Assembly (NCBI GenBank): GCA_009829735.1
Contig: CM020618.1
Span: forward strand, 31,720,894-31,784,893
Direction: 5' to 3'
Length of the DNA stretch: 64,000 nucleotides
Origin: Pyropia yezoensis
Lineage: Eukaryota > Rhodophyta > Bangiophyceae > Bangiales > Bangiaceae
A program made the position numbers and the translations under genes. A model generated the notes under the pieces. That model had not been told where the DNA came from and made no database searches. It saw nothing but the letters and a program-made list of their open reading frames with translations. Of this stretch, positions 11,680 to 46,473 are shown piece after piece (position 1 is the first letter of the stretch; each line of letters starts with the position of its first letter).

Positions 11680-12259
11680 TGTGACAAAAACCACTTACAC
11701 ACATGACACCCAAGTTAAGGCGGTGTACAAGGGCTGCCGCCTCCCGTGTCGGGGGAGCCGGAAGAAGTGCAAGTCGCACACACTCTGTCCTGTGGAAAAA
11801 ACCACATGCACACACGGCACCCAAGTTGGGGCGGTGTGCAAGGGCTGCCTCCCGTGTCGGGGGAACCGGAAGAAGTGCAAGTCGCACACACTCTGTCCCT
11901 GTTGTGGGGCAAACCCCCCACGGACAAACAAGAGGATGGTGTGTGGTCCAACAGTTTCTTGGTCGGGACGGGGACGCAGGGCCAAGCCCCGCTGTCCCTC
12001 CCCTTATCCCCCCAGGGTCCACTCAGAATCTCGCCACTCAGAATCTCCCACCCCAGCACCTGCCCACCGGGCCACACGAAAATTCAAGACGATAAATGCA
12101 GAAAACCCTCAAATCCAAGTTGGATTTACTACTAAACTAACTATCCCAAACTTAGGGAATATGGACCCAAATGCAGGGGGAGGAACGGATCAGGCTAGTG
12201 GCCTGCCGCCCCTTGCATGGCACGTGTTGCCCCCCTACCTGGGAGTCAATACTGCCACA
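11680..12259 (-). repeat. 3' LTR of E2-1, with an internal 111-bp tandem duplication
   Basis: The LTR begins TGTGACAAAAACC and ends ATACTGCCACA. It is 580 bp against 470 bp and 469 bp for the E2-2 LTRs. The excess equals a duplicated terminal segment: 11680-11790 and 11791-11901 are diverged copies of the same LTR start. Confidence 0.85.
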
Positions 12260-12597: not shown

Positions 12598-14079
12598 ATG
12601 GCGACCCCGGGAGTGGAGACGGACTCTCTAGATGAGCGTATGGAGGACACCACTTACGGTGCAGCACCCGCCGGGACTTTCGGCGGAGGCTCCGCGATCG
12701 CTCCGGGGGATGGGACTCCCGCGTCACCCGGCTTTGGGTTGACGGCGGCGTCTCCCCCGGAGGCGGGACAAGTTGTCCCGCGTGAGGCCTTGGGGCGGTG
12801 GTTTTACCCCGCTTGGCCTCTCTATGAGGAGGGGTTGACTGTTCTTCGCTGTGGCCGACTTGGCGCAGCGATGGGTCGGGTATGGGACCGCCTACGGGAG
12901 AAGTATCCCCGTAGGGTCGGGTTCCCTGCCGGCTTCAGGACGGACCAGTTTGCCTTCCTGGACGACGAGGAGGTCGAAGACGTCCAGCGTGCCAAGGCCA
13001 TGGTGGACCGCGGGGGAACTATCCCGGGTCCCGGCGACTTGCCGACCTTCACGTGGGACGCTGTGGCAACTCGCCCACCGTACCTCCACGAGGCCGATCC
13101 GCACACTCATCACTTTGATGTGCGGATGGAGAAAGACTTCCGGCGAGGTCCCTACTTGGTGACCTCGGCTCAACTTGAGTTTCCTCAACAGTCTGCTGCC
13201 GGTAAGGAGCAGTACTATCCGAAGAAGCCCGAGTGGTGGCCTCAAGTTGAGGTCCCCTACGGGTTCCCGGCGTTGCTGCCACGGTTGCTTGACCACTTCG
13301 GCTCCGTCATGTTGACGGCTGGCCCTGATCACCTGGTGTGGGCCATGTTGGCCACCCAGTGGCTCCTCGAGGTCATGTCGACCTGGGTGTCTTGTGTTCA
13401 GCGGCGGGGGATGCTCTGGCATCTCCCCCTCCGGCTTATCCAAGGTTTGGAACAGCTCACCCCTCAGCTAGTTGCTGAGGGGTGCTCATCAGGACAACTC
13501 ACTCTACTTGAGGAGATGCTCCGCCTCCACAAGTTCATCGAGTGGGAGAGCGTTGAGCACAAGTTGCGCCGCCCCACTCGTGGGCCCAAGGATGATGGCG
13601 CACTTCGCCAGTTCGTATGGGTCGCTCGTGAACTTCACGACGGCCGTGTGGTCCTACGAGAGGGGTTGGGCATCGGGGACTACCCGTATGCCCCGGGGGT
13701 GGATCGCCACACTGCGCCACCCCCGGACAAGCCCATAGTTATGGCCGTGCCGTCCTATGATGACCATATGACTCAACCCACTGCGGGGGCCCCAAGTCGG
13801 GGTCGCAGTTACACCCGGGTACCGCCACCTCGGCGGGCCCCTCCGCTTCCTCCTGTTCCTTTCCAGCCTCACGGGAACATCCCTGATCAGCGTGGCCGTG
13901 GAGTCATCCACCCCGGTGTCCCCCCACTTGGGGGCCACCCTCCTGACGGTATACCCCAAGTTGGTGTTACCGCCCACGCCTCTAACCTCAGAGATGATGA
14001 TCACCACGTTGGTGCGCACCATTTCCTGGTTGGCCGCGTCGACCGCAACCCTCCAAAGTTCCGAGACTCCTCAACTTGA
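12598..14079 (+). CDS. Antisense third ORF of E2-1, main frame (493 aa)
   Basis: The ATG lies in an excellent context (GAGAGCCATGG). The N-terminus is acidic and Gly/Pro-rich. The core (residues about 75-400) includes FYPAWPLYEEGL, LDHFGSV at residue 231 and RRGMLWHLP at residue 269, followed by predicted helices. The C-terminal part is Pro-rich. The core aligns with the E1 antisense protein (LRYFGSV at 487, RRQGRLFHLP at 523, then EFEALL..H..VNW against LLEEMLRLHKFIEW). No protease, RT, integrase or envelope motif, signal peptide or membrane segment is visible. It runs convergently to pol. The frame has identical length in E2-2, which supports constraint or very recent copying. The function is unknown. 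Confidence 0.75.
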   Translation: MATPGVETDSLDERMEDTTYGAAPAGTFGGGSAIAPGDGTPASPGFGLTAASPPEAGQVVPREALGRWFYPAWPLYEEGLTVLRCGRLGAAMGRVWDRLREKYPRRVGFPAGFRTDQFAFLDDEEVEDVQRAKAMVDRGGTIPGPGDLPTFTWDAVATRPPYLHEADPHTHHFDVRMEKDFRRGPYLVTSAQLEFPQQSAAGKEQYYPKKPEWWPQVEVPYGFPALLPRLLDHFGSVMLTAGPDHLVWAMLATQWLLEVMSTWVSCVQRRGMLWHLPLRLIQGLEQLTPQLVAEGCSSGQLTLLEEMLRLHKFIEWESVEHKLRRPTRGPKDDGALRQFVWVARELHDGRVVLREGLGIGDYPYAPGVDRHTAPPPDKPIVMAVPSYDDHMTQPTAGAPSRGRSYTRVPPPRRAPPLPPVPFQPHGNIPDQRGRGVIHPGVPPLGGHPPDGIPQVGVTAHASNLRDDDHHVGAHHFLVGRVDRNPPKFRDSST

Positions 14080-14542
14080 GGAGCGCGTTCGTACTGCAGT
14101 GGCGACCGCGAGTTGCGAGTCAGTGGCGGAGTTTATGACAGCCGAGTTGGCTCGTATTGGGGCTATTATGCCCCAGCCAGCCCCACTTGGGCGTGGCAAA
14201 CGTCGCGCGAGCCGGGCATACTCGCCTCCTCGCCGTCGTCGCCGACACTCGCGGCGCTCTCCTTCCGTATCGGAAGACGAGTTGTCTTACTTCGTCTCGG
14301 AGTCCTCTACCCCGTCGGAGACGGAGTCTGTCCAGCATCTGCGTCGCAAACTTGCGCGCAAGACCAGGCAGAAGAGTAGCCACGGTCGGCGCCACTTGCG
14401 CGACCGTGAAGGGCGCGACGGTTCCGACTTGGAGCCGCCGCCCCTTCCAACGAGTGGAGACCATTATCGGCGTGGGTCTCGCCGCTCGCCTCCACGTGAG
14501 GGCGAGGGCCGTGGAGTGGGAGAGTCTAGCATGCGTGCCTAG
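13892..14542 (+). CDS. Overlapping second frame of the E2-1 antisense gene (216 aa)
   Basis: This frame is +1 relative to the main antisense ORF and overlaps it by 188 nt. It has a helical segment (LEERVRTAVATASCESVAEF), then an Arg/Ser-rich tail with PPRRRRRHSRRSPS and acidic SEDELS motifs resembling RS-type or nuclear targeting regions. The E1 antisense protein also ends in a helical segment, so this is probably the true C-terminus of the same gene, reached by a +1 frameshift or by an intron I could not place. Both E2 copies retain the overlap at identical length. Confidence 0.6.
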   Translation: MAVESSTPVSPHLGATLLTVYPKLVLPPTPLTSEMMITTLVRTISWLAASTATLQSSETPQLEERVRTAVATASCESVAEFMTAELARIGAIMPQPAPLGRGKRRASRAYSPPRRRRRHSRRSPSVSEDELSYFVSESSTPSETESVQHLRRKLARKTRQKSSHGRRHLRDREGRDGSDLEPPPLPTSGDHYRRGSRRSPPREGEGRGVGESSMRA

Positions 14543-14645: not shown

Positions 14646-14670
14646 GCCCTCCCTTACGTTGAGGGAGGGC
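14646..14670. terminator. Hairpin between convergent antisense gene and pol
   Basis: GCCCTCCCT and AGGGAGGGC flank the loop TACGTTG. The hairpin spans the pol stop region and lies about 100 bases beyond the antisense stop. A role in 3'-end formation is inferred from position only. Confidence 0.35.
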
Positions 14671-17600
14671 TGTTAGGGTCTATCTCATTCCGGGCACAGT
14701 ACGCCCGGACCTTCTCGGCAGGAAGGTCCTCCACATACTCCCACGTATCGTCCTTGGCTTTGTAGCAAAACCAACGCACCCTCAACATGAGGCGGTCAGT
14801 GTCTTCATCCCATCCGTGGTCGATGAACTTATCGAACACGTACTCCTGCGGGCCCTGTTTGGCCGCAGGCAGTGAGGGGAGGCGCCACGCTTCCAACGCA
14901 CGCGCCCAAGCTGGGTCGCCTGCAGGCGATGGTGCAACTTTGACCACGTCCTGTCCGTTCACTGTGCGGACCCCATCGTCACTTTCGATGGTGAAGCGCC
15001 GCCCATCAGTACGAAGGACCTGGTACGGCCCCTTCGTCTGGAATACCAACTTACCCCCAGTTGGGGTGTGTGAGTGAACCAGCACCCAGTCACCCTCTTC
15101 GGGGACATACTTAGCATTGCGCACCTTTTTGTCAAAGGTACGCTTGTAGCGCTTTTGTGCTTTGTCCATCTCAGCCCTGACTTTATGGATGAGGTGTTCC
15201 AGCCTAGCAGCGAACTCCGCCTTACTCTCAGTAGGAGTAGGCGTACTGCCACTATCCTCCCCAGTTGGGAGCAACCGCCGCACGGCAATAGACCGCACAC
15301 GACGGGGGGTCACAAAAGCGAGGGGTACTTCCCCGGTAGATGAGTGAACCTGCGAATTGTAGGCGGTAGTAAGAATAGAAATGTATTGGTCCCACGTCTT
15401 CACGTGCTCACTCACATAGTGGCGCAGCTGCCTAACAATAGTTTTGTTGAAGCGCTCCACCTGCCCATTAGTTTGTGGGTGGTAGGGGGTGGCATAGTTT
15501 GCCTTAACCCCCAACATATCCAGCACTCCCTGAAACAGTACAGACGCAAATTGCGGTCCATTGTCCGATAGTGTACTATCTGGGATGCCATACGCGGCAA
15601 CCCAGTGATCTAGGAAGGCTGACACGACCGACATGGCCGTGATCTCTGCCAGTGGGATCGCTCGCGTAAGTTTCGTGAAGCGGTCACAGATGACCAGGAG
15701 GTACTGGTTGCCCTCCTCGGTCACTGGCAGTGGCCCAAGGATGTCCATCGCCAACGCGGCGAAGGGCTCCTTGGCCGGGAACAATAGCATAGCCGTACTA
15801 GGCCGCCGTTCCATCAGACGGTTCTGTGCACAACTTGTGCAGGCAGCCACCCAACTGTAGATGTCCACCACCATGGACGGCCAGTAGTACCTGGTCCTCA
15901 GGGTCTGGTACAGTTTACTAGACCCCAGGTGTCCACCCGTGGGAGCGTTGTGCTCCCTCTCAAGGATACTGCCCTTGAGGGATGCGGGGACGACAAGTTG
16001 TTCGGTCCCCTGGAATACCCCCCTCCTCATGAGGAGGCCATCGTTTCCCAAGAAGAACCGCGTCTCCGCCACTGTATCCAGTGTATCCCTCTGCGACTTG
16101 CAGAAGGGATCCTCGGCCTGGGCCTTCGCCACCTCGTCCAGGGACAGGGGCAAGTACTTCTTGTTCCCTGGCGCCTCGGGGTTCAACGCCTGACCCGAGC
16201 GCGTGACTACCCCCACGATGGGGATGTCCTCATCGACTGGGTTAGTGTCCAGCCCCTCGGTAGGTACCCGAAAGAGGCCGTCGGCAAGGGCATGTTGCCT
16301 GCCAGGTCGGTACTCAATGTCAAAGTTGAAGGGTGCCAGTCGCACCCTCCACCGATTGAGACGAGTGTTCGTACAGTCCGTCTTAAAGATGAACTGCAAC
16401 GCGCGGTGGTCACAGCGGATGAGGAACTTCTCACCCTCTAGGTAGTGACGAAGTGACGTCACCGCCCACACCACTGCGAGTCCTTCCAACTCAGTGACTC
16501 CGTAGTTCTTCTCGGCCGAGTTCAGCCCCTTACTGAAGTATCCCACCGGCAAGTACTCCTTGTCCGGCTGCTGCTGAAGCAACACACGACCAAGTTGGTC
16601 GTAGCTAGCGTCCACATCCAGGATGTAGTGGCCTCCCAACCTGGGAATAGCCAAGATGGGGGGCTTCAGCAGAAGGCCCCGAAGAGTCTCAAAGGATTCC
16701 TGCTCCACCCGACTTGGGGGAGGCAGGTTCTTTGGTAGCGTTGAGCTCACTAGCTCATTCAACGGCTTCGCCACCTTGGCGAAGCCCTTGGTGAAACCTC
16801 GGTACACGTTACACATCCCGAGGAAGCTCCTCATCTGGGTCTGGGTCCGGGGGTACTGAGCCTTACGGATGGCCCTCAAGTTCTTCTCGTTGACACTGAG
16901 ACGCCCCGGATGGACAACATGTCCCAAGTACTCCACCTCTTGAGTAAAGAGGTGGCACTTACTCGCCTTCAGTGACACACCGGCGTCAGCAAGTAGCTTA
17001 AACACCTGGCCAAGATGGCCAATGTGTTCCTCCGGACTTCGGGAGAACACAATGATATCGTCTAGGTACACAAGACAGATCTGCCACCGTACTCCGGCCA
17101 GAATCATGTCCATAGCGCGCTGGAAAGTTGCCGGCGCGTTACACAGACCAAACGGTAGACGCTTGCACTGATAGGTACCACAGTGACAGGTAAAGGTAGT
17201 TTTATGCCTGTCCTCCGGGGCAATGGGAATTTGCCAGTACCCCGCGTTACAGTCCAGGGTAGAGAACACGTTTGCCTCCCCCAGAGAGTCCAGACAGTCG
17301 TCCATCCTAGGTAGGGGATAACTGTCCTTCACCGTGCTCTCGTTGAGCTTACGGTAGTCGATACCGAATCGGGGGGTCCCATCAACTTTGGGGACGATAA
17401 CCACCGGACTCGCCCACTCGGCGTTGCTGGCCTCGATCACGTCGAGGGCCTCCATGCGAGCAACTTGCTCTTTAACGAGGGCCCTTGAACGACGTCCTCC
17501 CCTATACGGTTGTTGGCGTATAGGGGGTGCACCGGGCTTCAACTCAATCCGGTGTTGGGTGGCTCTCATGAGTCCCAATTGACCATCCCACAACTTGTGA

Positions 17601-17972
17601 TATTGGTCCAAGAGGCGTTCAACTTGAACCCTCAACCTGGGGGGGACACCCTCCATGATCACATGGGGCCGAGGAGAGGCGGCCGACTTGGCTTGATGCT
17701 TCTCCTTTCCGGACTTCGGGTCGCTACTTGCGCCCGCGTTGAGGGTGAGCGCTACTACCGGTCCCTCGTGTTGGTCGATATAGCCGAACTTGGCTCCCGA
17801 CTTGAAGTACTGGGGCGACGGGCTCAGGTTCATCACCTGGATCCTCCACGGGACTCCGGCTTTGGAGTCCATCGTGCCAAGGGCAACATGCACTTGGTGC
17901 TTGCGAGCAAGACGGGGGTAAGGGTGCACCAACCCGCTCCCCGTATAATCAGTTACAACGTCAACGTGCGCC
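14654..17972 (-). pseudogene. pol: E2-1 pol: reverse transcriptase, RNase H, integrase, chromodomain (N-terminal part missing)
   Basis: This is an uninterrupted frame of about 1100 codons. It contains the RT core with YLDDI at 17068-17054, RNase H, the integrase zinc finger and DDE core (MDILGPLP, SDNGPQF, QTNGQVERFNK) and a C-terminal chromodomain-like segment (RVRWF, DDTWEYVEDL) near 14850-14700. That layout is typical of chromoviruses. The frame enters from the adjacent E1 LTR1, where an ATG at 18079 supplies a non-native N-terminus. The protease region is absent (its DTGSG is at 54170-54156 in E2-2). The enzyme domains look intact, but the element lacks gag and protease. Confidence 0.85.
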
Positions 17973-18335
17973 TGTAGCACAATAGGAATCCGTCGCACGT
18001 CCACTCTCAGGGAACACTCACCAAGGGGGATCGGCACCAACGTCACCGGGAGGCCAAGGTTGCTGTCCTTGGAGCGCAAGCCACGGGACCAAGATGGGAG
18101 CCCAAATGGGAGGGGTTTGTTGTTCTAACTTGGCCGGCGGTGGATTCGCCACCGGCCCCCTCGTTATAAACCCTCGGAGACACTACTAACTACCCTCCAC
18201 CCCAAGATGCAAGTCCCTCTGGTCATACGTAACTTATAGATACCGTGACCAGTTCGGACTCTCAAATTGAAAGATAAGGATTAGAAGTAGCCCCCCTGAT
18301 ATTAGGGTCACAATACGGACAACCATATTGCTACA
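17973..18335 (-). repeat. E1 LTR1
   Basis: 363 bp, TGTAGCACAATAGG to CATATTGCTACA, with TG..CA ends. It carries TATAAA at 18166-18171 on the plus strand and TATAAG at 18238-18233 on the minus strand. Confidence 0.9.
18166..18238. promoter_or_regulatory. TATA-like motifs on both strands of the E1 LTR
   Basis: The plus-strand TATAAA (18166) points towards the antisense gene at 18922. The minus-strand TATAAG (18238) points in the gag-pol direction. The same motifs occur in the other E1 LTRs. A bidirectional promoter is inferred. Confidence 0.4.
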
Positions 18336-18350
18336 TATCCCCCCCTTAGA
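18336..18350 (-). other. Polypurine tract of E1c
   Basis: On the minus strand AAGGGGGGGATA abuts LTR1. The same tract abuts LTR4 of E1a. E1b has only a weaker AAGGAGATG at this place. Confidence 0.65.
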
Positions 18351-18921: not shown

Positions 18922-21369
18922 ATGTCCTATCCCCAGGTGCTTGAAGAGGAGGAAGACCTCCTGATCGGGGAGGAGATGGAGGACGACGCGCCTGTCGGTC
19001 CCGACGCCGCGCGTTACGGGGTGAGCTCGTCTGACGACGACGCGCCTGCTGTGTCCGTCCGTCTGTCGGCCGGAGGACTGTCGTCCGTGTGCAGCGGCAC
19101 GACGGTGCCGTCGGCCGGAGGTCAACCCGGCGGTCAACCGCGCGTGGCGGCTTCTACCCCCTCTCTGCCGGCTGCCCGGATGGAGCCTGGTGCCGGTGCC
19201 GGCTCACCGCAGCTACCTCAAGATGGTCCGCCCTGCGGCGGAGGTGGCGACCCGCAGCCGACTCCGGCTGGTCAAGGTGGTCCGGGTGTCCGGGCGGTAA
19301 CTCCTCGAGGCGGTCCCGACGTTGACGCGGGTGGTGGTGGCGGTGCGACACCCGGTGCGGCGGGTCAAGACGGTGCGGGTGTCCGCACGGCCGGGGCTCC
19401 GGCTCCGGAGGCTGTCCAAGTGCCTTCTGCTTCCGAGGCGGGGGCTACGCCGACGGGTGGTGCCGGCGCCGGTACCATACCTGCGGTGCCGCGGGTGTCG
19501 AGCGGTCAAGACGCTCCTTCTCCCATGGCGGTTGACACCGGGAGTTACTCCGGGCGGGCGCCCGCCCTTCTTCTTCCTCCTCGGCCTCGTCCATCTCCGA
19601 CGTCGGCCCCTCTGCCGGTGGTGCGTCCCCCGGCGCCCCCGATTCTTCCTGGTCCTGCCCGGGTTGCCCCGGTGGGTGGCGGCGTCGCCGTGGCGGCGGG
19701 TCAACCCGCCATGTCGGTGTCGGACTTGGTGGCTCGGGTTCGAGGCCTCACGGTGCAAGAGTCGATGGAGTCCGATGGGCGTATGCGGGTGGACTTCCAC
19801 CTGGTGCATCCCCGTGGAGAATCCTCCCAGCGCGTCAAGGTGGACCCGAGCTGGGAGCGGGAGTTGGTGCGGCTGGTCAACCAGCCGACCGCGGTCCGGG
19901 TGGAACACCATTGGATCCTGAGTCAGCCGGACGACCGGCATGCGCAGCTCTGGCGCACCCGGGTGGGACGGGGTGAGGTCTACCTCGACCCCAACTTCGG
20001 GGTCTGCGACCTGATTGCCCCCGCGTTGCCGCGGGAGATTGACTACACGGCTAGTGCTCGGGGGATTGCGGCGGCGGCGGAGCCGGTTGCGTTTGGGGAG
20101 ACGGTGGGCAGTACCGGTCGGTATCCCGACTTTGACTACTACCCGGGGGAACCCCCGTATCTGTCGTTGACGGCTCCCTACCCGCCCATGGCGGGGTTGA
20201 AGTCGGCGTCGAGTTGGCGACGTAACCATGGTGTCATGGCGGATGCGTTCCGCACGGATATAACGTGTGCGTTGCAGACCGGCAACGGTCGTGCTCCGGT
20301 ATACACTCCCGTGCGCCCGCCGCTATGGCAGGAGGGGTGGGAACCCGCCCCTGATTTCCGGTTTGACACCGGCTGCTGTCTTCGCTACTTCGGGAGTGTG
20401 TTGGCCTCGCGACCGGTCCACCCGTTGCAGGGTACCTTCACCCTTGAGGTTACCCTCGGGCAGGCTTCCTCCTTCTTGCTGTCCGTCCGCCGGCAGGGTC
20501 GTCTGTTTCATCTTCCGACGGGTGTCCGTCGGCACATCGCGCAGTTGGGCGTGGATCTGATAGCCGCCAAGACCGGGTTGGCCCGGGAGTTCGAAGCCCT
20601 GCTGGCTGTTCACGATGCCGTGAACTGGGCTGGGGTGTTGGCCCTTCCCCCGTACCGGGACCCGCAGGCTGGGGCTTCCCCCTTGCCTCGTCACTCGTTG
20701 CGTGTCCGGCGTACTCAGCCGGGTGAGCCCAGTTGCCATGGGTGGGCATCCACCGAGGCTGTTGCTGACCTGGGTATTCCCATGGTTATCCATGACCCTC
20801 TTCAGGTCCTTGCTCCGTGGTTCGGTAACCCGATGCCGGCGGCGGTTGGCCGTCGTCCCCGAGAGAGGGGCTCTGTGGGTGGGGAGCGTGAGGTGTCCCG
20901 TCGTCGGGCGGAGTACCGCCGTGGTTACGGTGGAGCCCCTTCGGTAGGGTCCTACCGGGCCTCGTATCAGGTGCCACCGGCTCCGGTGGTAGCCGTGTCG
21001 GCTCCTGTGGCTCCTCTGGCTGCGCCAGTGTCACCTCCCGCCCCTGTCCTACATGACGGGGGTCCCCGTCTCTGGTATGAGGGCGTTGACGCCCTTGTTA
21101 CCCGCGCAATGCGTGGGGGTCTCTCTGTTAGCTGGGGGGATATCCCCCCAGGTGCTGCGCTGGTTGGGTCAGCGCGTTGCTTCGGTGGCGTGCTGGACCG
21201 CCTCCAGAAAGCTCTGGAGGACGTGGAGGCTGGCCGCAGCACCCTCGTCCAGCTATGCACCGAGGTAACTCGGGTGGTCGACCGTCGTGACGTTGCCGAC
21301 CGGTGGAGCACGGAGGTCTACGCGCTTACGCGTGAGTGGCCTCCCTCGGGCAGTGGGTCTACCCACTGA
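18922..21369 (+). CDS. Antisense third ORF of E1c (815 aa)
   Basis: It starts MSYPQVLEEEEDLLIGEE with an acidic N-terminus. A long Gly/Pro/Ala-rich low-complexity region (about residues 50-270) follows, then a folded region from MSVSDLVARVRGLTVQES. This contains FHLVHPRGESS, VRVEHHWILSQPDDRHAQLW, LRYFGSV (487) and RRQGRLFHLP (523), and a helical C-terminus (FGGVLDRLQKALEDVEAG). The core aligns with the E2 antisense protein. There is no signal peptide, membrane segment, zinc knuckle or polymerase motif, so it is neither an envelope nor a second gag by motif. The ATG context (TTATCATGT) is weak. Frame and length are the same in E1a. Function unknown; it could act in trans on integration, silencing or packaging. 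Confidence 0.8.
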   Translation: MSYPQVLEEEEDLLIGEEMEDDAPVGPDAARYGVSSSDDDAPAVSVRLSAGGLSSVCSGTTVPSAGGQPGGQPRVAASTPSLPAARMEPGAGAGSPQLPQDGPPCGGGGDPQPTPAGQGGPGVRAVTPRGGPDVDAGGGGGATPGAAGQDGAGVRTAGAPAPEAVQVPSASEAGATPTGGAGAGTIPAVPRVSSGQDAPSPMAVDTGSYSGRAPALLLPPRPRPSPTSAPLPVVRPPAPPILPGPARVAPVGGGVAVAAGQPAMSVSDLVARVRGLTVQESMESDGRMRVDFHLVHPRGESSQRVKVDPSWERELVRLVNQPTAVRVEHHWILSQPDDRHAQLWRTRVGRGEVYLDPNFGVCDLIAPALPREIDYTASARGIAAAAEPVAFGETVGSTGRYPDFDYYPGEPPYLSLTAPYPPMAGLKSASSWRRNHGVMADAFRTDITCALQTGNGRAPVYTPVRPPLWQEGWEPAPDFRFDTGCCLRYFGSVLASRPVHPLQGTFTLEVTLGQASSFLLSVRRQGRLFHLPTGVRRHIAQLGVDLIAAKTGLAREFEALLAVHDAVNWAGVLALPPYRDPQAGASPLPRHSLRVRRTQPGEPSCHGWASTEAVADLGIPMVIHDPLQVLAPWFGNPMPAAVGRRPRERGSVGGEREVSRRRAEYRRGYGGAPSVGSYRASYQVPPAPVVAVSAPVAPLAAPVSPPAPVLHDGGPRLWYEGVDALVTRAMRGGLSVSWGDIPPGAALVGSARCFGGVLDRLQKALEDVEAGRSTLVQLCTEVTRVVDRRDVADRWSTEVYALTREWPPSGSGSTH

Positions 21370-21825: not shown

Positions 21826-24800
21826 TTACAGTAGGCGTCGTCGCCTCATGTACGGCATGACGAGTTGGCGGGGTATATTCGCCGCCTGTTCCCAGGTGGG
21901 TGAGTCGTATCCGACCCACATAACCTTGACGTACCAGGGTCCTGGTATGTCCGGGTCGGTGTGTCCGACCACGCTCTCTACTTGGTATGGAATCCCATCC
22001 GGTCCCACCGGGTCATCCGACCGGTGGGTTGTAAGAGCTTCATGTAGCAACCCAGCCGGTACCGGCTGAGGCTGTTCCGGCTTCGGAGCAGGTGTGACAT
22101 CATTCATGCTGATGCGTTGAATCTCCGTATCGGAGTGTAAGATAACAGAGTGGTCATCTCTGTGGAGGATCTGGTACGGTCCCTTGACCGGTTGCATAAG
22201 CTTGTTCCCTCGGAACTTCTGGTGTCTGATATAGACCCAGTCACCTGTTACCAGGGTTGCGTTGCGCACCCGTAGTCGGGCGTCGAAGTTCTTCTTGTAT
22301 CGAAGTTGTGTTCTGTCAAGGGCACCCTTGAGCTTAGGAATCATCCCCGATAGCTTGGCCAACCAAGCTAGGTGGATGCGTTCGGCGGGTCGGCCCTTCG
22401 GTGTATCATACCGAGTGCACCTGCCGGGTGGCAGCGTCAGGTTACCGACGCCTAGTGGCATGACCCACTCCAGCGGAGCAATGTTTGTGCTCCGATGTGG
22501 CCTGGCATTGTATGCCAGGGTGAGTACGGACAGAAGCCTGTCCCAAGTGTTCGTGTGCTCGGCCACGTAGCCCTGTAGCATCTTTACGATGGTGCGGTTG
22601 AACCGCTCCACCTGCCCGTTGGACTGCGGGTGGTAGTCGGATGCCCGACGTGGTTCGATACCGAACATGCCCAGGACCTTAGTGCAGAATGCCGACGTAA
22701 GGTTTGCTCCGTTATCGGAGAGGAGTTGCTTCATGACTCCGTATGCACTGATCCAGTGGTCAACCACTGCGTTCATGATCGTGTATGCCGTATCATTCGG
22801 GATGGCTGCCGCTCTTGACAGCTTAGTGAAGCGGTCAGACATGACCAGGATGTACCTGTTCCCTTCTTCCGTTATCGGAAGTGGCCCGAGTATGTCGATA
22901 GCGACTTGCTCGTTGGGCCCATCAGGTGGGAATAGCTTCATGGCAGACGCCCGCCTATGTAGACTCATGCGGTTACGTGCACAGGGGTGGCATCCCCGTA
23001 CGTGGTCGACCACGTCGACGGCCATTGCTGGCCAGTAGAAGAACCTTCGCATTGCTGCGAACATACGTGAACCCCCCGGGTGTCCGGCTGTAGGGTTCTC
23101 ATGTTCTCGTTCCATGACGGCTTGCCGTAAGGACACGGGAACCACGACTTGATGTCGTCCATCGGCGGGTGCCCGCCGGTATATGAGTCCGTCTTCGTTC
23201 TCGGAGAAGATGCCGGCCGTACCGGCCAGGAGGTTAGCACGATGACGTCTACAGTCATCGTCGTTGGCCTGTGCCTCGCGGAAGTCCGCGAGGGTCAATG
23301 GGCACGCAAGGTGTGCCATGGTATGGTCAGCCATACCCTGGGTAGCATTACCCACCATGCACACCGGTACTACCGGGATGTCCTCGTCCACCGGGCGGGT
23401 ATCCCCGCTCGGGGTGTCGAGTCGAGACAACGCGTCTCCGAGGTGGTGGGTTGACCCAGCCTTATACACCGTGCGGTAGTCGTGCTCGGCCATCTTCAGC
23501 CTCCATCGGGCTAGCCTCCCATGGCTATCGGAATCCTTGTCACCAAGGTTGAGGAGCCATCGTAGGGGTTCGTGGTCGGACCTCACGATGAACCTGGAGC
23601 CCTCCAGGTATGGACGGAGCAGTTGGACTGCCCATATAACTCCGAGGCATTCACACTCGGTGGCACTATAGTTCCGCTCAGCCGGGTTGAGTGTCCGGCT
23701 GAAGTACCCTACCGGACGTAGGTCCGGGATAACGTTATCGGTACCGATCAACGTCTCTCCCTGTAACAGGGTGCATCCCACTTGTGTATCACACGCATCG
23801 ACATCGATGACGAAGGTACCCCGTCTATGCGGTAACGCAAGGACGGGTGGGGACAGTAGGGCTCGCTTCAGCGACCCGAATGCCTCCTCTTCGCTAGGCG
23901 AAGGGGGTTGGAGTACCTTGGGTAAGGTACTGCTCGTAAGAACCGTTAACGGTTTAGCTATCCGAGCGAAGTCCTTGACGAACCGTCGGTATACATTGCA
24001 CATTCCCAGGAAGCTCTTGAGCTGCGTCTGGGTGTTAGGGAACCGGGCATCCCGGAGTGCCCGGGTATTGGCTTCGAGTACCCCTAGTTTACCAGGGGTT
24101 ATCTGGTGGCCCAGATATTCGACCGTCTGTTGGAAGAAGGCGCACTTCTTCAGACGCAGGGTTACCCCGGCGTTCCTCAAGAGGGTGAGTACCTCGTCAA
24201 CATGTTGTACATGGTCATCCATGTTACGCGAGAAGACGATGACGTCATCGAGGTACACTAGGCAGTTACGCCACTTCACCCCAGACAGTATGATGTCGAT
24301 AGCCCGCTGGAATGTAGCGGGGGCGTTGGACAATCCGAAGGGCATCCTTAGGAACTCGTACACTCCACTGTGACAGACGAATGCCGTCTTGGGGATATCC
24401 TCGTCCGCCACCGGGATCTGCCAGTATCCGGCATTGCAGTCGATGGTGGTAAACACCGTAGCCTCCCCCAGGGAGTCGATGCATTCATCCATCCTTGGTA
24501 AAGGGTATGAGTCCTTCTTGGTAACCAAGTTGAGGCGTCGATAATCGATGCAAAACCGAGGGGTTTGATCCTTCTTCGGCACAATAACGACTGGGGCACC
24601 CCATTCCGACATCGAAGGTCGGATCACCTTAGCTTCACTCATCCTCTTCACTTCTCCATCAACGATCTCTCGTTGCATAGGTCCCGCTCGGTGCGGTTGT
24701 GAGCGGGCGGGTCGTGCGCCTGGTACCAGGTCTATACGATGTTGGGTTGCCCCAATGGTCCCCAAGGCCCCGCCTGTCCACATAACGTCATGCTTTCTTA

Positions 24801-25992
24801 GCATCCGTCGTACCCCTTCGGCTACCGAAGGGGGAAGGTGGTCGAGGTCAGCCTCGGCTAGTGCCTTCAAGGCCTCTTGGTCCTTTGGCGGCAGGTCCGC
24901 CGGCGCCGCCGATGGGTTAGGCTTCCCGTCATCGGGTTGCTGTCGCTCGGTGGTCTCGGCGACCGCCAGTACTTCAAGTGGTTCCACTTGACCTTCCTTA
25001 TCAGGGGTAAGGATATCTCCTTCGTAGAGTTCGGCAATCCCGAGGATAGTTCCCTTCGGGAGGGTGACTGCCTTACGGCGGTAGTTCGCCATCACTAGGA
25101 GGGACGACCCTTCTGCTGGGAGGTCTATGAGACCGTTGGCCATGGTCAACCCATGGCGCTTGTACGTCCGTAGGTTGGACTGGACTCTGCAGATGCCTGC
25201 GAGGTCGCAGTTAACCGGGAGGACTGTCTCTGACAACGGCTCAAAGCGAGTTCGCTCGGCCAACCGAAGTGTCTTCGGCTCGACGCTTGCGTACACCTCA
25301 GCCACGTTAACGTGGCTTCCTTGTAGCGTCAGGTCCCTGACGATGGCCGTGTGTCCTCGCTTCGTCCCGTCGGCTTCTTGAAGCTCGACGGTCCTCCGGC
25401 CTGGCCGGATTGCATCAACGTGAACGTTGATGAAGGTGCACCCCAGTATGCAGGGCACCGATAGCGTTTCACATACCAGGAAGTCAACTTCCGTGGTGAG
25501 ATCCCCGATGGTAACCTGCAGCGACATCGCTGCGGTCGTACGAATGAGTCGACCATTCGCGTCCTTGATGGTGGGTCCCCGAGTCACTCTGACTCGTGGA
25601 AGCCACTTGTCCGGGAGGGTATCCTTCCGGATAAGGTTGGGTCCAGCCCCTGTGTCCAGTACAGGGTAGTACGATCGTGTCGACTGGGGGTCAACCCCCA
25701 GTGTGGCTGATACCTTGAAGTTCTCCAAGGTAAACAACACATGTCCTACACCGATATCCGGTGTAGCTCGGGCATCCTGAACAGGGCCCTTGTCTGGTTC
25801 AACGTGACGGGGCTTCCCGTCCTCTCCTCCCAACCTTGGAGGTTGGTCATCAATCCCCTGACGCCGTGTCGTCGGGGCCGGAAGGTGTACCCGGGGGTTG
25901 ATGCGGCGTCGGCTCAACCGCGCTCTCCGTGGGGCTTTCCCCGCGGTACTCCGGGGTGGCTTGCTTGGGTAACCCCAGCGCCCCCCGGTCAT
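21826..25992 (-). CDS. pol: E1c pol polyprotein (1388 aa)
   Basis: Domains in order: aspartic protease with VLDTGAGPNLI (DTGAG at residues 113-117), reverse transcriptase with YLDDV (580-583), RNase H beginning near residue 728 (VIDVDACDTQVG), integrase zinc finger (about 960-1005, CHPCARN), integrase catalytic core (IDILGPLP at 1032, SDNGANL near 1093, QSNGQVERFNRT), and a C-terminal chromodomain (about 1325-1385, YVKVMWVGY and TWEQAANI). This is the classic Ty3/gypsy chromovirus order. It begins 8 nt after the gag stop in a different frame, so expression probably needs reinitiation or frameshifting. No break is seen, so the element looks potentially autonomous. Confidence 0.92.
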   Translation of the reverse strand: MTGGRWGYPSKPPRSTAGKAPRRARLSRRRINPRVHLPAPTTRRQGIDDQPPRLGGEDGKPRHVEPDKGPVQDARATPDIGVGHVLFTLENFKVSATLGVDPQSTRSYYPVLDTGAGPNLIRKDTLPDKWLPRVRVTRGPTIKDANGRLIRTTAAMSLQVTIGDLTTEVDFLVCETLSVPCILGCTFINVHVDAIRPGRRTVELQEADGTKRGHTAIVRDLTLQGSHVNVAEVYASVEPKTLRLAERTRFEPLSETVLPVNCDLAGICRVQSNLRTYKRHGLTMANGLIDLPAEGSSLLVMANYRRKAVTLPKGTILGIAELYEGDILTPDKEGQVEPLEVLAVAETTERQQPDDGKPNPSAAPADLPPKDQEALKALAEADLDHLPPSVAEGVRRMLRKHDVMWTGGALGTIGATQHRIDLVPGARPARSQPHRAGPMQREIVDGEVKRMSEAKVIRPSMSEWGAPVVIVPKKDQTPRFCIDYRRLNLVTKKDSYPLPRMDECIDSLGEATVFTTIDCNAGYWQIPVADEDIPKTAFVCHSGVYEFLRMPFGLSNAPATFQRAIDIILSGVKWRNCLVYLDDVIVFSRNMDDHVQHVDEVLTLLRNAGVTLRLKKCAFFQQTVEYLGHQITPGKLGVLEANTRALRDARFPNTQTQLKSFLGMCNVYRRFVKDFARIAKPLTVLTSSTLPKVLQPPSPSEEEAFGSLKRALLSPPVLALPHRRGTFVIDVDACDTQVGCTLLQGETLIGTDNVIPDLRPVGYFSRTLNPAERNYSATECECLGVIWAVQLLRPYLEGSRFIVRSDHEPLRWLLNLGDKDSDSHGRLARWRLKMAEHDYRTVYKAGSTHHLGDALSRLDTPSGDTRPVDEDIPVVPVCMVGNATQGMADHTMAHLACPLTLADFREAQANDDDCRRHRANLLAGTAGIFSENEDGLIYRRAPADGRHQVVVPVSLRQAVMEREHENPTAGHPGGSRMFAAMRRFFYWPAMAVDVVDHVRGCHPCARNRMSLHRRASAMKLFPPDGPNEQVAIDILGPLPITEEGNRYILVMSDRFTKLSRAAAIPNDTAYTIMNAVVDHWISAYGVMKQLLSDNGANLTSAFCTKVLGMFGIEPRRASDYHPQSNGQVERFNRTIVKMLQGYVAEHTNTWDRLLSVLTLAYNARPHRSTNIAPLEWVMPLGVGNLTLPPGRCTRYDTPKGRPAERIHLAWLAKLSGMIPKLKGALDRTQLRYKKNFDARLRVRNATLVTGDWVYIRHQKFRGNKLMQPVKGPYQILHRDDHSVILHSDTEIQRISMNDVTPAPKPEQPQPVPAGLLHEALTTHRSDDPVGPDGIPYQVESVVGHTDPDIPGPWYVKVMWVGYDSPTWEQAANIPRQLVMPYMRRRRLL

Positions 25993-26000: not shown

Positions 26001-28190
26001 TTACTCGTTTCCCGCCCTTGGTAGGGTGCTGTCCGCCGGGACATCCGGCTGAGGAGGTGCCCCCTCGACGGCCAGTACTCCACCTGGAGCTGGCTGCCTA
26101 CCCGGTGCGGGTCCGGGTGCTCGGGCGGGATACCCCCCGGTGGATGCCTTGCGTTGCGCCGCTGCCCGCCGAGACTCCTCGGGGATGAGTGGGCAGGAAG
26201 ACACCCAGTGCTGGGGATCCCCACACAACATACACCCGGACGTGCCGGTCCCCCCTTGAGTTCGCATAGGGGTAGCCCCGTAGCTACGGTTGCCTCCCTC
26301 GGGCGCCCGAGTGCCTGCTCCCTGGTAGGCCTTGGGTCTTTGGGTCAACCGGAACATGGACTCCCCCAACCGGTTGGGTCGGCCCGCAATCTGCGGAGGT
26401 GCCTCCGTGCGCACCGCCCATGTTGGCAAGGGTTGGTGAGGGTTACCCGTCACCGGGGAGTACCCCGTAGTCCGCACATACGGGACGCGCCGTCCCGTTC
26501 CTTCGTTGACCTGGAACTGGGTTCCAGCCGGGGCGATGTACGCTACCGTACCATGTTCATCAATCACCGGCGTCGCCGGTAGCAACAGGTGGCCCTGTTG
26601 GTCGACTAGAGGGTCATCCTCACCAATAGGGGTATGTTCGGTCGCCACCAGTACTGGTGCGGCCTTACGCTCCACCTTCTCTTGCCTCGGTACCGGCGTA
26701 AGACTGGGCTTGCCTCCCTCGCCCTTGGGCTTCGGGGCCAAGGCACACTCCGGGTGTAGAACCCGGTAGGCGTCCCCTAGGGACTTGCACATATGCATCA
26801 GTCGACTGAAGTTCGTCCGTGCCGTGTTGGCGCCCCGTGCGGATATCCGCACGTAGTTGGGTACTCCTGCGAACAGGATGGCCCGTAGCTCCCCTTCTCC
26901 GAGGAGCTTCCCCAGCTCGTAGTCGAGCTCTTGGATCCGGCGTCCAAACATCTCCTCATCCTCCCAGTTCTGGGCGGTGGCAGTGCGCAGGGCCCGGTAG
27001 TGGTCCTCGCACTTGTCCTCACTGAGGTAGCTGCTCAGCAGCTCCTTCAATATCCCACGGTAATCCATGGGGGTGGCCGCGACCCTCATTCCCGGCATCG
27101 GGGATGCCTGGCGAAGAATGCCTCGCACCCGTTCATCAACGAAGAACGGGAGGATCTCCAGGGCCAGCCCCTCGTTAACGAGCGCCTTGTCTGCGGCTGC
27201 CTTGAAGCTAGTGAAGAAGCCGATGACTGCCAACGGGCGTCCGTTCGGCCCCCCGAACATAGGGACTCCCTTCATAAGGGTCTGCATAGAGCGGATCGCC
27301 CGATTCGACGTATTACGCATCGATTCCGATACGGTGGTAGAGCGGTCCTCCAAACGATAACGTTCCGGAGTAAGAACCGACCGGAAGACCTCGTTGACGA
27401 TCTCCGTGTCAGCGTCCTGGATATCCAGTCGCTTAGCCAGTTGATGAGCGAACTCATCGGACTCCATCCGCTTCAGTAGGCTCGCAGTTATCTGCGCGGT
27501 CATAGCTTCCACCACTGAAGATGGTACTTCAGGCGTCGGCACCTCGGGAACCCGAGTTGCCTGGGCTCCTTCGTCGTGGGGGTACTGCGAGAGGGTACCC
27601 CCTCCCCCAATAACCGACTCTCCCCCGGCGTACGTATCCGCCGGGTCGTGTCCGCGGAGTCCGCTTCGGGTGCTCCGAGCGTATCGCTCCGTGTGACTCC
27701 GTTCCAACTCTGCCGACGAGTCGGACCCATACCCCATTGTGTCCGGGGGTTGTCCAGGAGTAGCAACCCCGGGATTGACCCTGGTGGACTCCGAAAGTAG
27801 TCCGGCCGGTTCGAACCGTACCGGTGTGGGAGGAACACGACGGGGTCCCGTCGTGTGCCGTGTTGACATCAACACTGCCATTGCGTCCTCCGTCCGATCT
27901 TGACGGGCGTCGAGCCCGGAAAACCGGGCCTCGATGCGGGCCAATGATGCCATCAGGGAATCCCCTGGTGAAGGAGGCGGCGGAGTGAGGTCGGTCGACG
28001 ACAGTTGAGGCGGGCCCCCGCCTCCTGCCGTCCGAGCCGTGCCAAACGTCGATCCGGCACCGGAAAGCATTGGCGTATCAATGTTATCGATCGGGTTACC
28101 GATCCCGGTTCCCGTAGTCACCTCCGGAGTCGGCGTCGACGCCGATCCGTCATCTTGAACGTTCCCCGTCTCTTGGGTAGACATAGTCAC
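26001..28190 (-). CDS. gag: E1c gag (729 aa)
   Basis: The N-terminus is Ser/Thr/Pro-rich (MTMSTQETGNVQDD). A capsid-like helical region lies at about residues 290-480. One CCHC zinc knuckle, CMLCGDPQHWVSSC, lies at residues 653-666 (26233-26192), followed by a Pro-rich tail. The size and single knuckle fit Ty3/gypsy Gag. The stop TAA is followed after 8 nt by the pol ATG. The frame is identical in length to the E1a gag. Confidence 0.9.
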   Translation of the reverse strand: MTMSTQETGNVQDDGSASTPTPEVTTGTGIGNPIDNIDTPMLSGAGSTFGTARTAGGGGPPQLSSTDLTPPPPSPGDSLMASLARIEARFSGLDARQDRTEDAMAVLMSTRHTTGPRRVPPTPVRFEPAGLLSESTRVNPGVATPGQPPDTMGYGSDSSAELERSHTERYARSTRSGLRGHDPADTYAGGESVIGGGGTLSQYPHDEGAQATRVPEVPTPEVPSSVVEAMTAQITASLLKRMESDEFAHQLAKRLDIQDADTEIVNEVFRSVLTPERYRLEDRSTTVSESMRNTSNRAIRSMQTLMKGVPMFGGPNGRPLAVIGFFTSFKAAADKALVNEGLALEILPFFVDERVRGILRQASPMPGMRVAATPMDYRGILKELLSSYLSEDKCEDHYRALRTATAQNWEDEEMFGRRIQELDYELGKLLGEGELRAILFAGVPNYVRISARGANTARTNFSRLMHMCKSLGDAYRVLHPECALAPKPKGEGGKPSLTPVPRQEKVERKAAPVLVATEHTPIGEDDPLVDQQGHLLLPATPVIDEHGTVAYIAPAGTQFQVNEGTGRRVPYVRTTGYSPVTGNPHQPLPTWAVRTEAPPQIAGRPNRLGESMFRLTQRPKAYQGAGTRAPEGGNRSYGATPMRTQGGTGTSGCMLCGDPQHWVSSCPLIPEESRRAAAQRKASTGGYPARAPGPAPGRQPAPGGVLAVEGAPPQPDVPADSTLPRAGNE

Positions 28191-28409: not shown

Positions 28410-28773
28410 TGTAGCACAATAGGGTATCCGTCGCACGTCCACTCTCAGGGAACACTCACCAAGGGGGATCGGCACCAACGTCACCGGGAGGCCAAGGTTG
28501 CTGTCCTTGGAGCGCAAGCCACGGGACCAAGATGGGAGCCCAAATGGGAGGGGTTTGTTGTTCTACCTTGGCCGGCGGTGGATTCGCCACCGGCCCCCTC
28601 GTTATAAACCCTCGGAGACACTACTAACTACCCTCCACCCCAAGATGCAAGTCCCTCTGGTCATACGTAACTTATAGATACCGTGACCAGTTCGGACTCT
28701 CAAATTGAAAGATAAGGATTAGAAGTAGCCCCCCTGATATTAGGGTCACAATACGGACAACCATATTGCTACA
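28410..28773 (-). repeat. E1 LTR2, shared between E1c and E1b
   Basis: 364 bp. It serves as 5' LTR of E1c (left edge next to the E1c primer site) and 3' LTR of E1b (right edge next to E1b pol 3' flank). Its left end carries AGGGTATCC as in LTR3, while its right part carries GTTCGG, GATAAGG and CTGATATT as in LTR1. Confidence 0.85.
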
Positions 28774-28932
28774 CATCTCCTTCAAGTAAACTTGTAAAAG
28801 TCAGTAGCTTACTTAGTTTGCCTAAGTCCGCTCCAACTTAGTGAACCTAGGTCTTGCCGAGTCCATGTGACACCCTACTCAGTAGGTATAAGCCTCACCC
28901 CCCAACAGCCGAAGTCGGTGTCGGTTGGGTTG

Positions 28933-31900
28933 TCACAGTAGGCGTCGTCGCCTCATGTAAGGCATGAGGAGTTGGCGGGGTATATTCGCCGCCTGATCCC
29001 AGGTGGGTGAGTCGTATCCGACCCACATTACCTTGACGTACCAGGGTCCTGGTAGGTCCGGGTCGGTGTGTCCGACCACGCTCTCCACTTGGTATGGAAT
29101 CCCATCCGGTCCCACCGGGTCATCTGACCGGTGGGTTGTAAGAGCTTCATGTAGCAACCCAGCCGGTACCGGCTGAGGCTGTTCCGGCTTCGGAGCAGGT
29201 GTCACATCGTTGAGGTTGATGCGTTGTATCTCCGTATCGGAGTGCAGTATGACAGAGTGATCATCTCTGTGTAAGATCTGGTACGGTCCCTTGACCGGTT
29301 GCATAAGCTTGTTCCCTCGGAACTCCTGGTGTCTGATGTAGACCCAGTCACCTGTTACCAGGGTTGCGTTGCGCACCCGTAACCGGGCGTCAAAGTTCTT
29401 CTTGTATCGAAGTTGTGTACGGTCAAGGGCACCCTTGAGCTTGGGTATCATCCACGATAGCTTGGCCAACCAAGCTAAGTGGATCCGTTCGGCCGGTCGG
29501 CCCTTCGGTATATCATACCGAGTGCATCTTCCCGGTGGCAGCGTCAGGTTACCGACGCCCATCGGCATGACCCATTCCAGGGGGGCAATGGTGGTACTCC
29601 GGTGGGGCCTGGCATTGTATGCCAGGGTCAAGACGGACAGAAGCCTGTCCCACGTCTTCGTGTGTTCCGCCACATAGCATTGGAGCATCTTGACGATGGT
29701 GCGGTTGAACCGCTCCATTTGCCCGTTGGACTGCGGGTGGTAGTCGGATGCCCGACTGGGTTCGATACCGAACATGCTCAGGACCTTAGTGCAGAATGCT
29801 GACGTAAGGCTTGCTCCGTTATCGGAGAGGAGTTGCTTCATTACTCCGGAAGCACTGATCCAGTGGTCAACCACTGCGTTTATGATGGTGTAGGCCGTAT
29901 CGCCCGGGATTGCTACTGCCCGAGACAGCTTAGTAAAGCGGTCCGACATGACCAGGATGTACCTGGTCCCTTCTTCCGTTACCGGAAGCGGTCCGAGTAT
30001 GTCGATAGCGACTTGCTCGTTGGGTCCATCCGGGGGGAACAGTTTCATAGCGGATGCCCGCCTATGAAGACTCATGCGATTCCGTGCGCACGGGTGGCAT
30101 CCCCGCACGTGGTCGATTACGTCGACGGCCATTGCTGGCCAGTAGAAGAACCTTCGCATTGCTGCAAACATGCGCTAACCCCCCGGGTGTCCGGCTGTGG
30201 GGTTCTCATGTTCTCGTTCCATGACGGCTTGTCGTAGGGACATGGGAACCACGACCTGATGCCGTCTATCGGCGGGTGCCCGTCGATATATGAGTCCGTC
30301 CTCGTTCTCGGAGAAGATGCCGGCCATGCCGCTAGGAGGTTAGCGCGATGACGTCTACAGTCATCGTCGTTGGCCTGTGCCTCGCGGAAGTCCGCGAGGG
30401 TCAATGGGCACGCAAGGTGTGCCCTGGTATGGTCAACAATGCCCTGGGTGGCATTACCCACCATGCACACCGGTACCACCGGGATGTCTTCGTCCACCGG
30501 GCGGGTATCCCCGCTCGGGGTGCCGAGTCGAGACAACGCGTCTCCGAGGTGGTGGGTTGACCCAGCCTTATACACGGTGCGGTAGTCGTGCTCGGCCATC
30601 TTCAGCCTCCATCGGGCTAGCCTCCCATGGCTATCGGAATCCTTGTCACCAAGGTTGAGGAGCCATCGTAGGGGTTCGTGGTCGGACCTCACGATGAACC
30701 TGGAGCCCTCCAGGTATGGACGGAGCAGTTGCACTGCCCATATGACCCCGAGGCACTCACGCTCGGTGGCACTATAGTTCCGTTTAGCCGGGGTGAGAGT
30801 CCGGCTGAAGTACCCTACCGGACGTAGGTCCGGGATAACGTTATCGGAACCGATCAACGTCTCTCCCTGTAACAGGGTGAATCCCACTTGGGTGTCGCAC
30901 GCATCGACATCGATGACGAAGGTACCCCGTCTATGCGGTAACGCCAGGACGGGTGGGGATAGTAGGGCTCGCTTCAGCGACTCGAATGCCTCCTCTTCGC
31001 TAGGCGAAGGGGGTTGGAGTACCTTGGGCAAGGTACTGCTTGTAAGAACCGTTAACGATTTAGCTATCCGAGCGAAGTCCTTGACGAACCGTCGGTATAC
31101 GTTGCACAATCCCAGGAAGCTCTTGAGCTGTGTCTGGGTGTTAGGGAACCGGGCATCCCGGAGTGCCCGGGTATTGGCTTCGAGTACCCCTAGTTTACCA
31201 GGGGTTATCTGGTGGCCCAGATACTTGACCGTATGTTGGAAGAAGGCGCACTTCTTCAGACGCAGGGTTACCCCGGCGTTCCGCAAGAGGGTGAGTACCT
31301 CGTCAACATGTTGCACATGGTCATCCATGTTACGCGAGAAGACGATGACGTCATCGAGGTACACTAGGCAGTTACGCCACTTCACCCCCGACAGTATAAT
31401 GTCGATAGCCCGCTGGAATGTAGCGGGGGCGTTGGACAATCCGAAGGGCATCCTTAGGAACTCGAACACTCCACTGTGACAGACGAACGCCGTCTTGGGG
31501 ATATCCTCGTCCGCCACTGGGATCTTCCAGTATCCGGCATTGCAGTCGATGATGGTAAACACCGTAGCTTCCCCCAGGGAGTCGATGCATTCATCCATCC
31601 TTGGTAAAGGGTATGAGTCCTTCTTGGTAACCAAGTTGAGGCGTCGATAATCGATGCAAAACCGAGGGGTTTGATCCTTCTTCGGTACGATAACGACTGG
31701 GGCACCCCACTCCGACATCGAAGATCGTATCACCTTCGCTTCGCTCATCCTCTTCACTTCTCCATCAACGATCTCTCGTTGCATAGGTCCCGCTCGGTGC
31801 GGTTGTGAGCGGGCGGGTCGTGCGCCTGGTACCAGGTCTATACGATGTTGGGTTGCCCCAATGGTACCCAGCGCCCCGCCGGTCCACATGACGTCATGCT

Positions 31901-33098
31901 TTCTTAGCATCCGTCGTACCCCTTCGGCTACCGAAGGGGGAAGGTGGTCGAGGTCAGCCTCGGCCAGGGCCTTCAGTGCTTCTTGGTCCTTTGGCGGCAT
32001 GTCCGCCGAAGCCGCCGATGGGTTAGGCTTCCCGTCATCGGGTTGCTGTCGCTCGGTGGTCTCGGCGGCCGCCAGCACCTCAAGCGGTTCAACTTGACCT
32101 TCCTTGTCAGGGGTAAGGATATCTCCTTCGTAGAGCTCGGCAATCCCGAGGATAGTTCCCTTCGGTGGGGTGACTGCCTTACGGCGATAGTTCGCCATCA
32201 CTAGGAGGGACGACCCTCCTGCTGGGAGATCCATGAGACCGTTGGCCCTGGTCAACCCATGGCGCTTGTACGTCCGCAAATTGGACCGGACTCTGCAGAT
32301 GCCTGTGAGGTCGCAGTTAACCGGGAGGACCGTCTTCGACAACGGTTCCAAGCGAGTTCGCTTGGCCAACCGAAGTGTCTTCGGCTCGACGCTTGCGTAC
32401 ACCTCAGCCACGTTAACGTGGCTCCCTTGTAGCGTCAGGTCTCTGACGATAGCCGTGTGTCCTCGCTTCGTCCCGTCGGCTTCTTGAAGCTCGACGGTCC
32501 TCCCGCCTGGCCGAATGGCATCCACGTGAACGTTGATGAAGGTGCACCCCAGTATGCAGGGCATCGATAGGGGCTCACACACCAGGAAGTCGACTTCCGT
32601 GGTGAGTTCCCCGATGGTACCCCGCAGCGACATCGCTGCGGTCGTACGAATGAGTCGACCATTCGCGTCCTTGATGGTGGGTCCCCGAGTCACTCTGACT
32701 CGCGGAAGCCACTTGTCCGGGAGGGTATCCTTCCGGATAAGGTTGGGTCCAGCCCCTGTATCCAGTACAGGGTAGTACGATCGGGTCGACTGGGGGTCAA
32801 CCCCCAGTGTGGCTGATACCTTGAAGTTCTCCAAGGTGAACAGCACGTGGCCTACACCGATATCCCGTGTAACTCGGGCATCCTGAACAGGGCGCTTGGC
32901 TGGTTCCATGTGACGGGGCTTCCCGTCCTCTCCTCCCAACCATGGTGGTTGGTCATCAATCCCCTGACGCCGTGTCGTCGGGGCCGGAAGGTGTACCCGG
33001 GGGCTGATGCGGCGTCGGCTCAACCGTGCTCTCCGTGGGGCTTTCCCCGCGGCAGTCCGGGGTGGCTTGCTAGGTTTACCCCAGCGACCCCGTGTCGT
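28933..33098 (-). pseudogene. pol: E1b pol, broken
   Basis: Aligned to E1c/E1a pol, the start ATG is ACG at 33098. A one-base deletion near 30330 shifts the frame at the start of the integrase region, and TAG replaces a Ser codon near 30177. The frame then reopens from 30171 to 28933 and covers integrase and chromodomain. Protease DTGAG, RT YLDDV and the integrase motifs are all still recognisable. Sequence divergence from E1c is much greater than between E1c and E1a. Confidence 0.88.
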
Positions 33099-33106
33099 CC
33101 TTCCTC

Positions 33107-35295: not shown

Positions 35296-35494
35296 AATCA
35301 GTCAACCGACGTAACAATCACCACGAATAAGAGAGCAAGGGGGTAGATTGGGGAGAGTAACAGTAGATCACAGTCAAAGGTAAAAACTCAACACTATCGA
35401 TCAGGTCGCAACACCACGAGTACAAGAAAAGGACCGGATCCCTATCCGTGTGCCAGGGCCGAAGACGGCGTCACCACAAGGGTGACGGAAACCC

Positions 35495-35513
35495 GTCCCC
35501 TGCTGCTCCACCA
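35495..35513 (-). other. Primer-binding site of E1b
   Basis: The same 19-mer as in E1c, E1a and E2-2, one base inside the 5' LTR. Confidence 0.7.
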
Positions 35514-35514
35514 A

Positions 35515-46395: not shown

Positions 46396-46473
46396 TGCCG
46401 TAACCATGTCACACCCTACTTAGTAGGTGTAAGCCTCACCCCCCAACAGCCGAAGTCGGTGTCGGTTGGGTTG

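Follow-up and report, generated by a model that had tools for sequence, protein, structure and literature searches.

Antisense open reading frames (ORFs) have been known as accessory genes in the LTR retrotransposons of plants for decades, without an assigned function. In Ty3/gypsy elements they lie between pol and the 3' LTR, and PMC7264820 and PMC11963269 name Grande gene23, RIRE2, Retand (TRP28) and PvRetro13 as examples. Grande gene23 is described there as a nuclear protein with its own promoter (PMC7264820), and DNA binding is predicted for Retand TRP28 (PMC11963269). Outside plants, an antisense ORF 3' of pol is reported in Boty, a fungal gypsy element of Botrytis cinerea (PMC7264820). 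Deltaretroviruses have proteins that are read in antisense to gag-pol from the 3' part, namely HBZ of HTLV-1 and APH-2, and in these viruses expression proceeds from the 3' LTR region on the gene's own strand (PMC11963269).

LTR retrotransposons predominate among the repeats of the red alga Pyropia yezoensis, according to PMC7423979. We analysed a stretch of 64,000 nucleotides of this genome (contig CM020618.1, positions 31720894-31784893; the window), in which two Ty3/gypsy elements, E1 and E2, each carry a long ORF that is antisense to pol, tail-to-tail with it, and placed before the 3' LTR. The original prediction saw in this ORF the best candidate for an undescribed system, which was too strong because plant Grande, RIRE2 and Retand have antisense accessory ORFs established at the same site, as PMC7264820 and PMC11963269 describe. 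Being antisense to gag-pol and between pol and the 3' LTR, the algal ORFs have the layout of the plant aORF-3R type, and they share with the plant ORFs their position, orientation, many copies per family, a conserved frame and a function without assignment. The deltaretroviral genes, with own-strand expression in the viruses, are alike in their side and orientation, and Boty is alike in layout. In contrast to the plant cases, the host is a red alga, a core is common to four families, and there is no match to TRP28 (PF04195) or SMC; the algal elements also have chromodomain-like integrase ends (above cut-off in E4 only), whereas Retand belongs to a non-chromovirus lineage. An antisense ORF in red-algal elements was not among the top results of our literature search, which is not proof of absence. 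The arrangement is known; what is new, as far as that search shows, is the protein family, its occurrence in four families within one red alga, and the selection measured on it.

Two nested elements with antisense ORFs

E1-A extends over 17973-28777 and is read on the minus strand, with a gag-like ORF (26001..28190, 729 aa, weak zinc knuckle), a pol gene (21826..25992) encoding protease-like, RT, RNase H, integrase and weak chromodomain regions, and LTRs at 28410..28777 (5') and 17973..18339 (3'). The antisense accessory ORF occupies 18922..21369 on the plus strand and encodes 815 aa, with a conserved core at approximately residues 440-600 (20239-20721). A second copy, E1-B (42621..53419, minus strand), sits within E2-B, is flanked at either end by the 5-bp duplication CACCC, and carries the 815-aa ORF at 43570..46017 on the plus strand. 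E2-A is itself broken by E1-A; part of its pol (14654..17972, minus strand; RT, RNase H, integrase, weak chromodomain) and its 3' LTR (11791..12259, minus strand) flank two plus-strand antisense ORFs, part 1 at 12598..14079 (493 aa, core at approximately residues 160-330) and part 2 at 13892..14542 (216 aa), in a different frame. In E2-B the two parts lie at 37567..39048 and 38861..39511 on the plus strand, with the 3' LTR at 36760..37228 (minus strand) and its partner LTR at 56473-56941. The LTRs measure about 365 bp in E1 and about 469 bp in E2; with them mapped, the predicted location of a long antisense ORF between the pol end and the 3' LTR was borne out in both elements. The tail-to-tail distance from the pol stop to the end of the antisense ORF is 457 bp in E1 and 112 bp in E2. 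The antisense ATG and the inner edge of the 3' LTR are 583 bp (E1) and 339 bp (E2) apart.

The order of the pol domains, with RT and RNase H ahead of integrase, is that of Ty3/gypsy elements in both E1 and E2. A chromodomain at the integrase C-terminus scored 39.3 bits in E4, one of two further families described below, above the cut-off of 25.1 bits; E3 (21.3), E2 (16.4) and E1 (13.2) fell under it. The GC content of the antisense-ORF region is 63-65%, and long frames are otherwise common in such GC-rich DNA, yet the observed ORF length was reached in none of 1000 simulated sequences for either the E1 or the E2 region.

Adjoining E1-A is E1-short (28778..35879, minus strand), an E1-type element whose pol is 94% identical to that of E1, with one frameshift and one stop, and which shares the LTR at 28410-28777 with E1-A in tandem (28410-35879). 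It is without the whole antisense region, showing that a copy lacking this region can exist. We rejected the idea that E1-short represents an amplified line without the gene: the exact junction was seen once, in the window, with 40 of 2339 candidates scored.

A single E2 gene, split in the window

The original prediction described the E2 protein as 493 plus 216 aa, which is correct for the window copies, but in most of the scored genomic copies E2 has one gene. Of the genome matches to the first E2 ORF, 79 were scored; 54 of them have a single frame of 724 residues, 51 of these 54 being stop-free within the match, and 72 of the 79 contained no stop. As the searches score the best candidates first, open-frame counts here and below are biased towards intact copies. 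All 20 further E2 copies that we retrieved depart in reading frame from both window copies towards the end of the first ORF. The two E2 antisense ORFs are therefore parts of a single gene that is broken in the window copies.

A core homologous in four families

The predicted alignment of the E1 and E2 cores was recovered by BLASTP (8e-11) and none of 500 shuffles aligned as well (z 15.1), so that in pairwise and shuffle tests the similarity is above random, but hhalign of the family alignments gave a probability of 1.2% for this pair and supported E3-E4 alone (E 2e-12). A profile of E1 and E2 was run on ORFs of all six frames, 240 in number, taken from six loci that lie 3' of other pol genes with an RVT_1 match. 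The top two matches were long antisense ORFs, E3 (locus L045, E 2e-4) and E4 (L046, E 0.002); the next match was at E 0.5, and four of the six loci (L041-L044) gave none. Both ORFs are tail-to-tail with pol like those of E1 and E2, although the E3 and E4 LTRs are unmapped, and the gap between pol and antisense ORF ranges from 45 to 457 bp across the four families. A profile of E4 with its relatives found E3 at 6e-17 and E2 at 1e-4, against 0.5 for the best shuffled protein. The cores of E2-E4 (z 12.6), E3-E4 (z 12.6) and E2-E3 (z 11.4) each exceeded all 500 shuffles. For E1-E3, 8 of 500 shuffles were as good (z 3.1), and E1-E4 showed no direct similarity (z 0.1, 202 of 500), so E1 is linked to E3 and E4 through E2 only. 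Pairwise RT identity among the four families is 58-79%. Arg-rich clusters are present in the E2, E3 and E4 proteins. A common second, C-terminal domain was considered and rejected, the likeness being confined to E3-E4 (z 4.8).

We also observed that the C-terminus of the E3 pol (L045:3-1220, plus strand) carries, after a chromodomain-like stretch, a match to Dam-type adenine methyltransferases (PF05869, E 1.5e-7, above cut-off). A tail of this kind occurs in DIRS elements.

Purifying selection on the antisense frame

For E1 and E2, omega was obtained by comparing the variant counts with those expected for identical changes in identical trinucleotide contexts, a shared variant being one present in at least two copies. 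In 22 E2 copies, over the codons that start at the ATG and stop short of the split, the shared variants were 11 nonsynonymous and 70 synonymous against 47.5 and 31.4 expected, giving an omega of 0.10, and residues 90-210 held 0 and 20. Over codons 1-487 omega was 0.38 for all variants, 0.55 for singletons and 0.16 for shared variants; the second E2 ORF gave 0.56, 0.85 and 0.28. For the E2 pol in 17 copies, the same method gave 0.51 (all variants) and 0.16 (shared variants), so the antisense frame is conserved like pol (shared omega 0.10-0.16 versus 0.16).

The signal in E1 is weaker. Across 22 copies the antisense ORF gave 0.77 for all variants, 0.86 for singletons and 0.53 for shared variants, frame +0 being the lowest of the six, compared with 0.32, 0.35 and 0.18 for the E1 pol in 21 copies. 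The N-terminal third, residues 1-279, is of low complexity and is unconstrained (1.36 for all, 1.17 for shared variants), whereas residues 279-815 gave 0.60 and 0.39. The description of the protein as conserved, supported by the homology of E1 and E2 and by the selection in E2 and E4, does not extend to this part of E1. Comparison with a 94.5% identical copy in L001 yielded an omega of 0.57 overall and 0.33 for the core. For two further partial copies the overall values were 0.66 and 0.21, and in one of them the core reached 1.20 on few changes. Within groups among 21 E1 copies, identity was 98.8-99.2% in the antisense ORF and 97.9-98.2% in the adjoining spacer to pol, which is about twice as diverged. 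Indels per pair numbered 0.82 and 1.20 in the spacer versus 0.25 and 0 in the ORF, and as 0.25 is the value given by two trimmed alignment ends, the ORF is without an internal indel in these 21 copies. All 150 scored matches to the E1 core were at least 97% identical, and 149 were stop-free.

Many of the scored E1 core matches share one score, 508.1 bits, which looks as though one core protein were repeated in dozens of copies by a recent burst from near-identical sources. The E1 antisense core occurs four times at G000:C2:9880703-9891862 with a spacing of exactly 3489 bp, which looks like a tandem array of this module.

A genome search with E4, in which 70 candidates were scored and 71 matches listed, returned near-full-length matches in three groups: 19 at 97-100% identity, 8 at 83-86% (3 stop-free) and 8 at 71-73% (4 stop-free). 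Older matches, at 41-64%, mostly contain stops. Open frames are therefore not confined to young copies in E4. For dN/dS we took two stop-free copies from each of the two divergent groups, a choice that biases the sample towards intact copies; in L050, one of these four, the start-codon position is occupied by a stop. Compared with L047 and L048 (85-86% protein identity, dS 0.52), E4 gave dN/dS of 0.14 and 0.15; third codon positions accounted for 184 of 280 and 182 of 288 differences, respectively. Six deeper pairs (70-72% protein identity) gave 0.17-0.21. Within the recent groups dN/dS was 0.52-0.54, the level expected after insertion. In two frame controls the antisense frame had 0 stops and each of the five others 4-36. 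A dN/dS well below 1, named in advance together with plus-strand transcripts as support for a functional gene, was thus found for E2 and for the newly found E4, where values of 0.14-0.21 are far from neutrality.

Protein families and structure

The original prediction recognised no motif in the protein, and this held: no Pfam, NCBIfam or PHROGs family was above cut-off for the antisense proteins. Sub-cut-off Pfam matches were DUF6214 (E 0.037), DUF641 (E 0.041) and uS5m_N (E 0.36), and NCBIfam and PHROGs had no match at E 0.1. TRP28 (transposase 28, PF04195) was absent from the Pfam matches at E 0.1 for E1 and E2 and at E 1 for E3 and E4. Against solved structures the best E1/E2 profile match was at E 0.62 and E4 had none at E 1; two scans of viral contigs confirmed no relative. 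A structure model of E2 with E1 rows reached a mean pLDDT of 33, and one of a short core gave a mean pLDDT of 56.6, a pTM of 0.50 and four helices, which tentatively suggests that the core is mostly helical. Foldseek against PDB and BFVD returned no fold match at E 0.001, and the models are too weak for a fold assignment. A reading as an SR protein was dropped, RS/SR dipeptides being at or below the shuffled or composition level in every antisense protein.

Discussion

In a group of P. yezoensis Ty3/gypsy elements, the antisense ORF is a true protein-coding gene: it lies tail-to-tail with pol, its core is homologous in four families, and it is under purifying selection between subfamilies. For E2 and E4, the measurable selection signal on the antisense frame settles whether such an ORF is a gene. 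The third-position bias, the frame-specific dN/dS of 0.14-0.21 and the lack of internal indels mean that selection acts on the protein and, since this happens inside the elements, that the protein helps the element. We therefore consider it probable that this is a selected accessory protein serving the element.

These same data weigh against the proposal that the antisense strand works as RNA, pairing with gag-pol RNA and tuning copy number through double-stranded RNA or silencing, with the frame incidental. The layout inherently gives transcripts antisense to the sense RNA, and such a role is named for plant elements in PMC7264820, but RNA alone is insufficient to account for a selected protein and we regard it as highly improbable, although an RNA role could coexist with that of the protein. 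Another explanation is that the frame under selection belongs to the sense strand, as an env-like or pol-tail ORF, and that the antisense frame is its mirror image through codon structure. It draws on the GC content of 63-65% and on the low omega of the mirror frame (-1) in E2 (0.52 for all, 0.26 for shared variants). The mirror frame nonetheless has 20 stops in E2, 26 in E1 and 10-12 in E4, and omega was lower in the antisense frame in every case tested; the stops refute this explanation for E2 and E4, E1 agrees, and we give it next to no chance.

Gene capture by retrotransposons is known, and the ORF might come from the host and travel in the elements as a passenger, of no use to them. Four families with such divergent RTs, and frames kept at 71-73% protein identity, however, need long selection inside the elements, which makes this very unlikely. 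A structural or movement-type protein, env-like or capsid-like, would suit the location, as retroviral env sits between pol and the 3' LTR. The antisense orientation, the lack of any match below E 0.3 between the window gag ORFs and the core profile, and the lack of a Pfam family above cut-off speak against it, and we think it unlikely.

For an accessory protein serving the element, our best guess, and a tentative one that we would sooner doubt than assert, is a nuclear regulatory role, suggested by position, orientation and the precedents of Grande gene23 and Retand TRP28. We would expect transcription to start at a promoter within or beside the 3' LTR and to run counter to gag-pol, and the protein to act in trans, raising the propagation of its element. 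A putatively helical core may bind an element or host partner, and the Arg-rich tracts of E2, E3 and E4 could serve nuclear entry or nucleic-acid contact; these clusters fit a nuclear regulatory role and do not show it. In this way the protein might control integration, the handling of RNA or transcription of the sense strand, a role like that suggested for the two plant proteins.

The evidence seems to us evenly balanced on a wider reading, that of an old, undescribed protein superfamily in which red-algal chromodomain-type Ty3/gypsy elements gained the antisense gene before the families split, unrelated to the plant TRP28/SMC type and selected as strongly as pol. If this is true, plants, fungi, deltaretroviruses and red algae would each have independently reached a counter-strand regulatory gene in the same place, and should the core have no relation to the plant proteins, counter-strand coding beside the 3' LTR would be a recurrent solution for mobile elements. 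In the genome of one haploid-growing red alga, four divergent families share a core and have many copies that are intact and very similar, and the function of the antisense gene is now open to test.

Other features of the window

A minus-strand ORF at 56834-59281 also encodes 815 aa, which equals the E1 antisense ORF in length, seemingly by chance, and has no match to the core profile. Within it, 57143-57991 is a diverged tandem-repeat array with steps of 45, 54 and 99 bp. Outside the E1 and E2 elements, a direct repeat of about 400-430 bp with 83.7% identity lies at 3697-4264.
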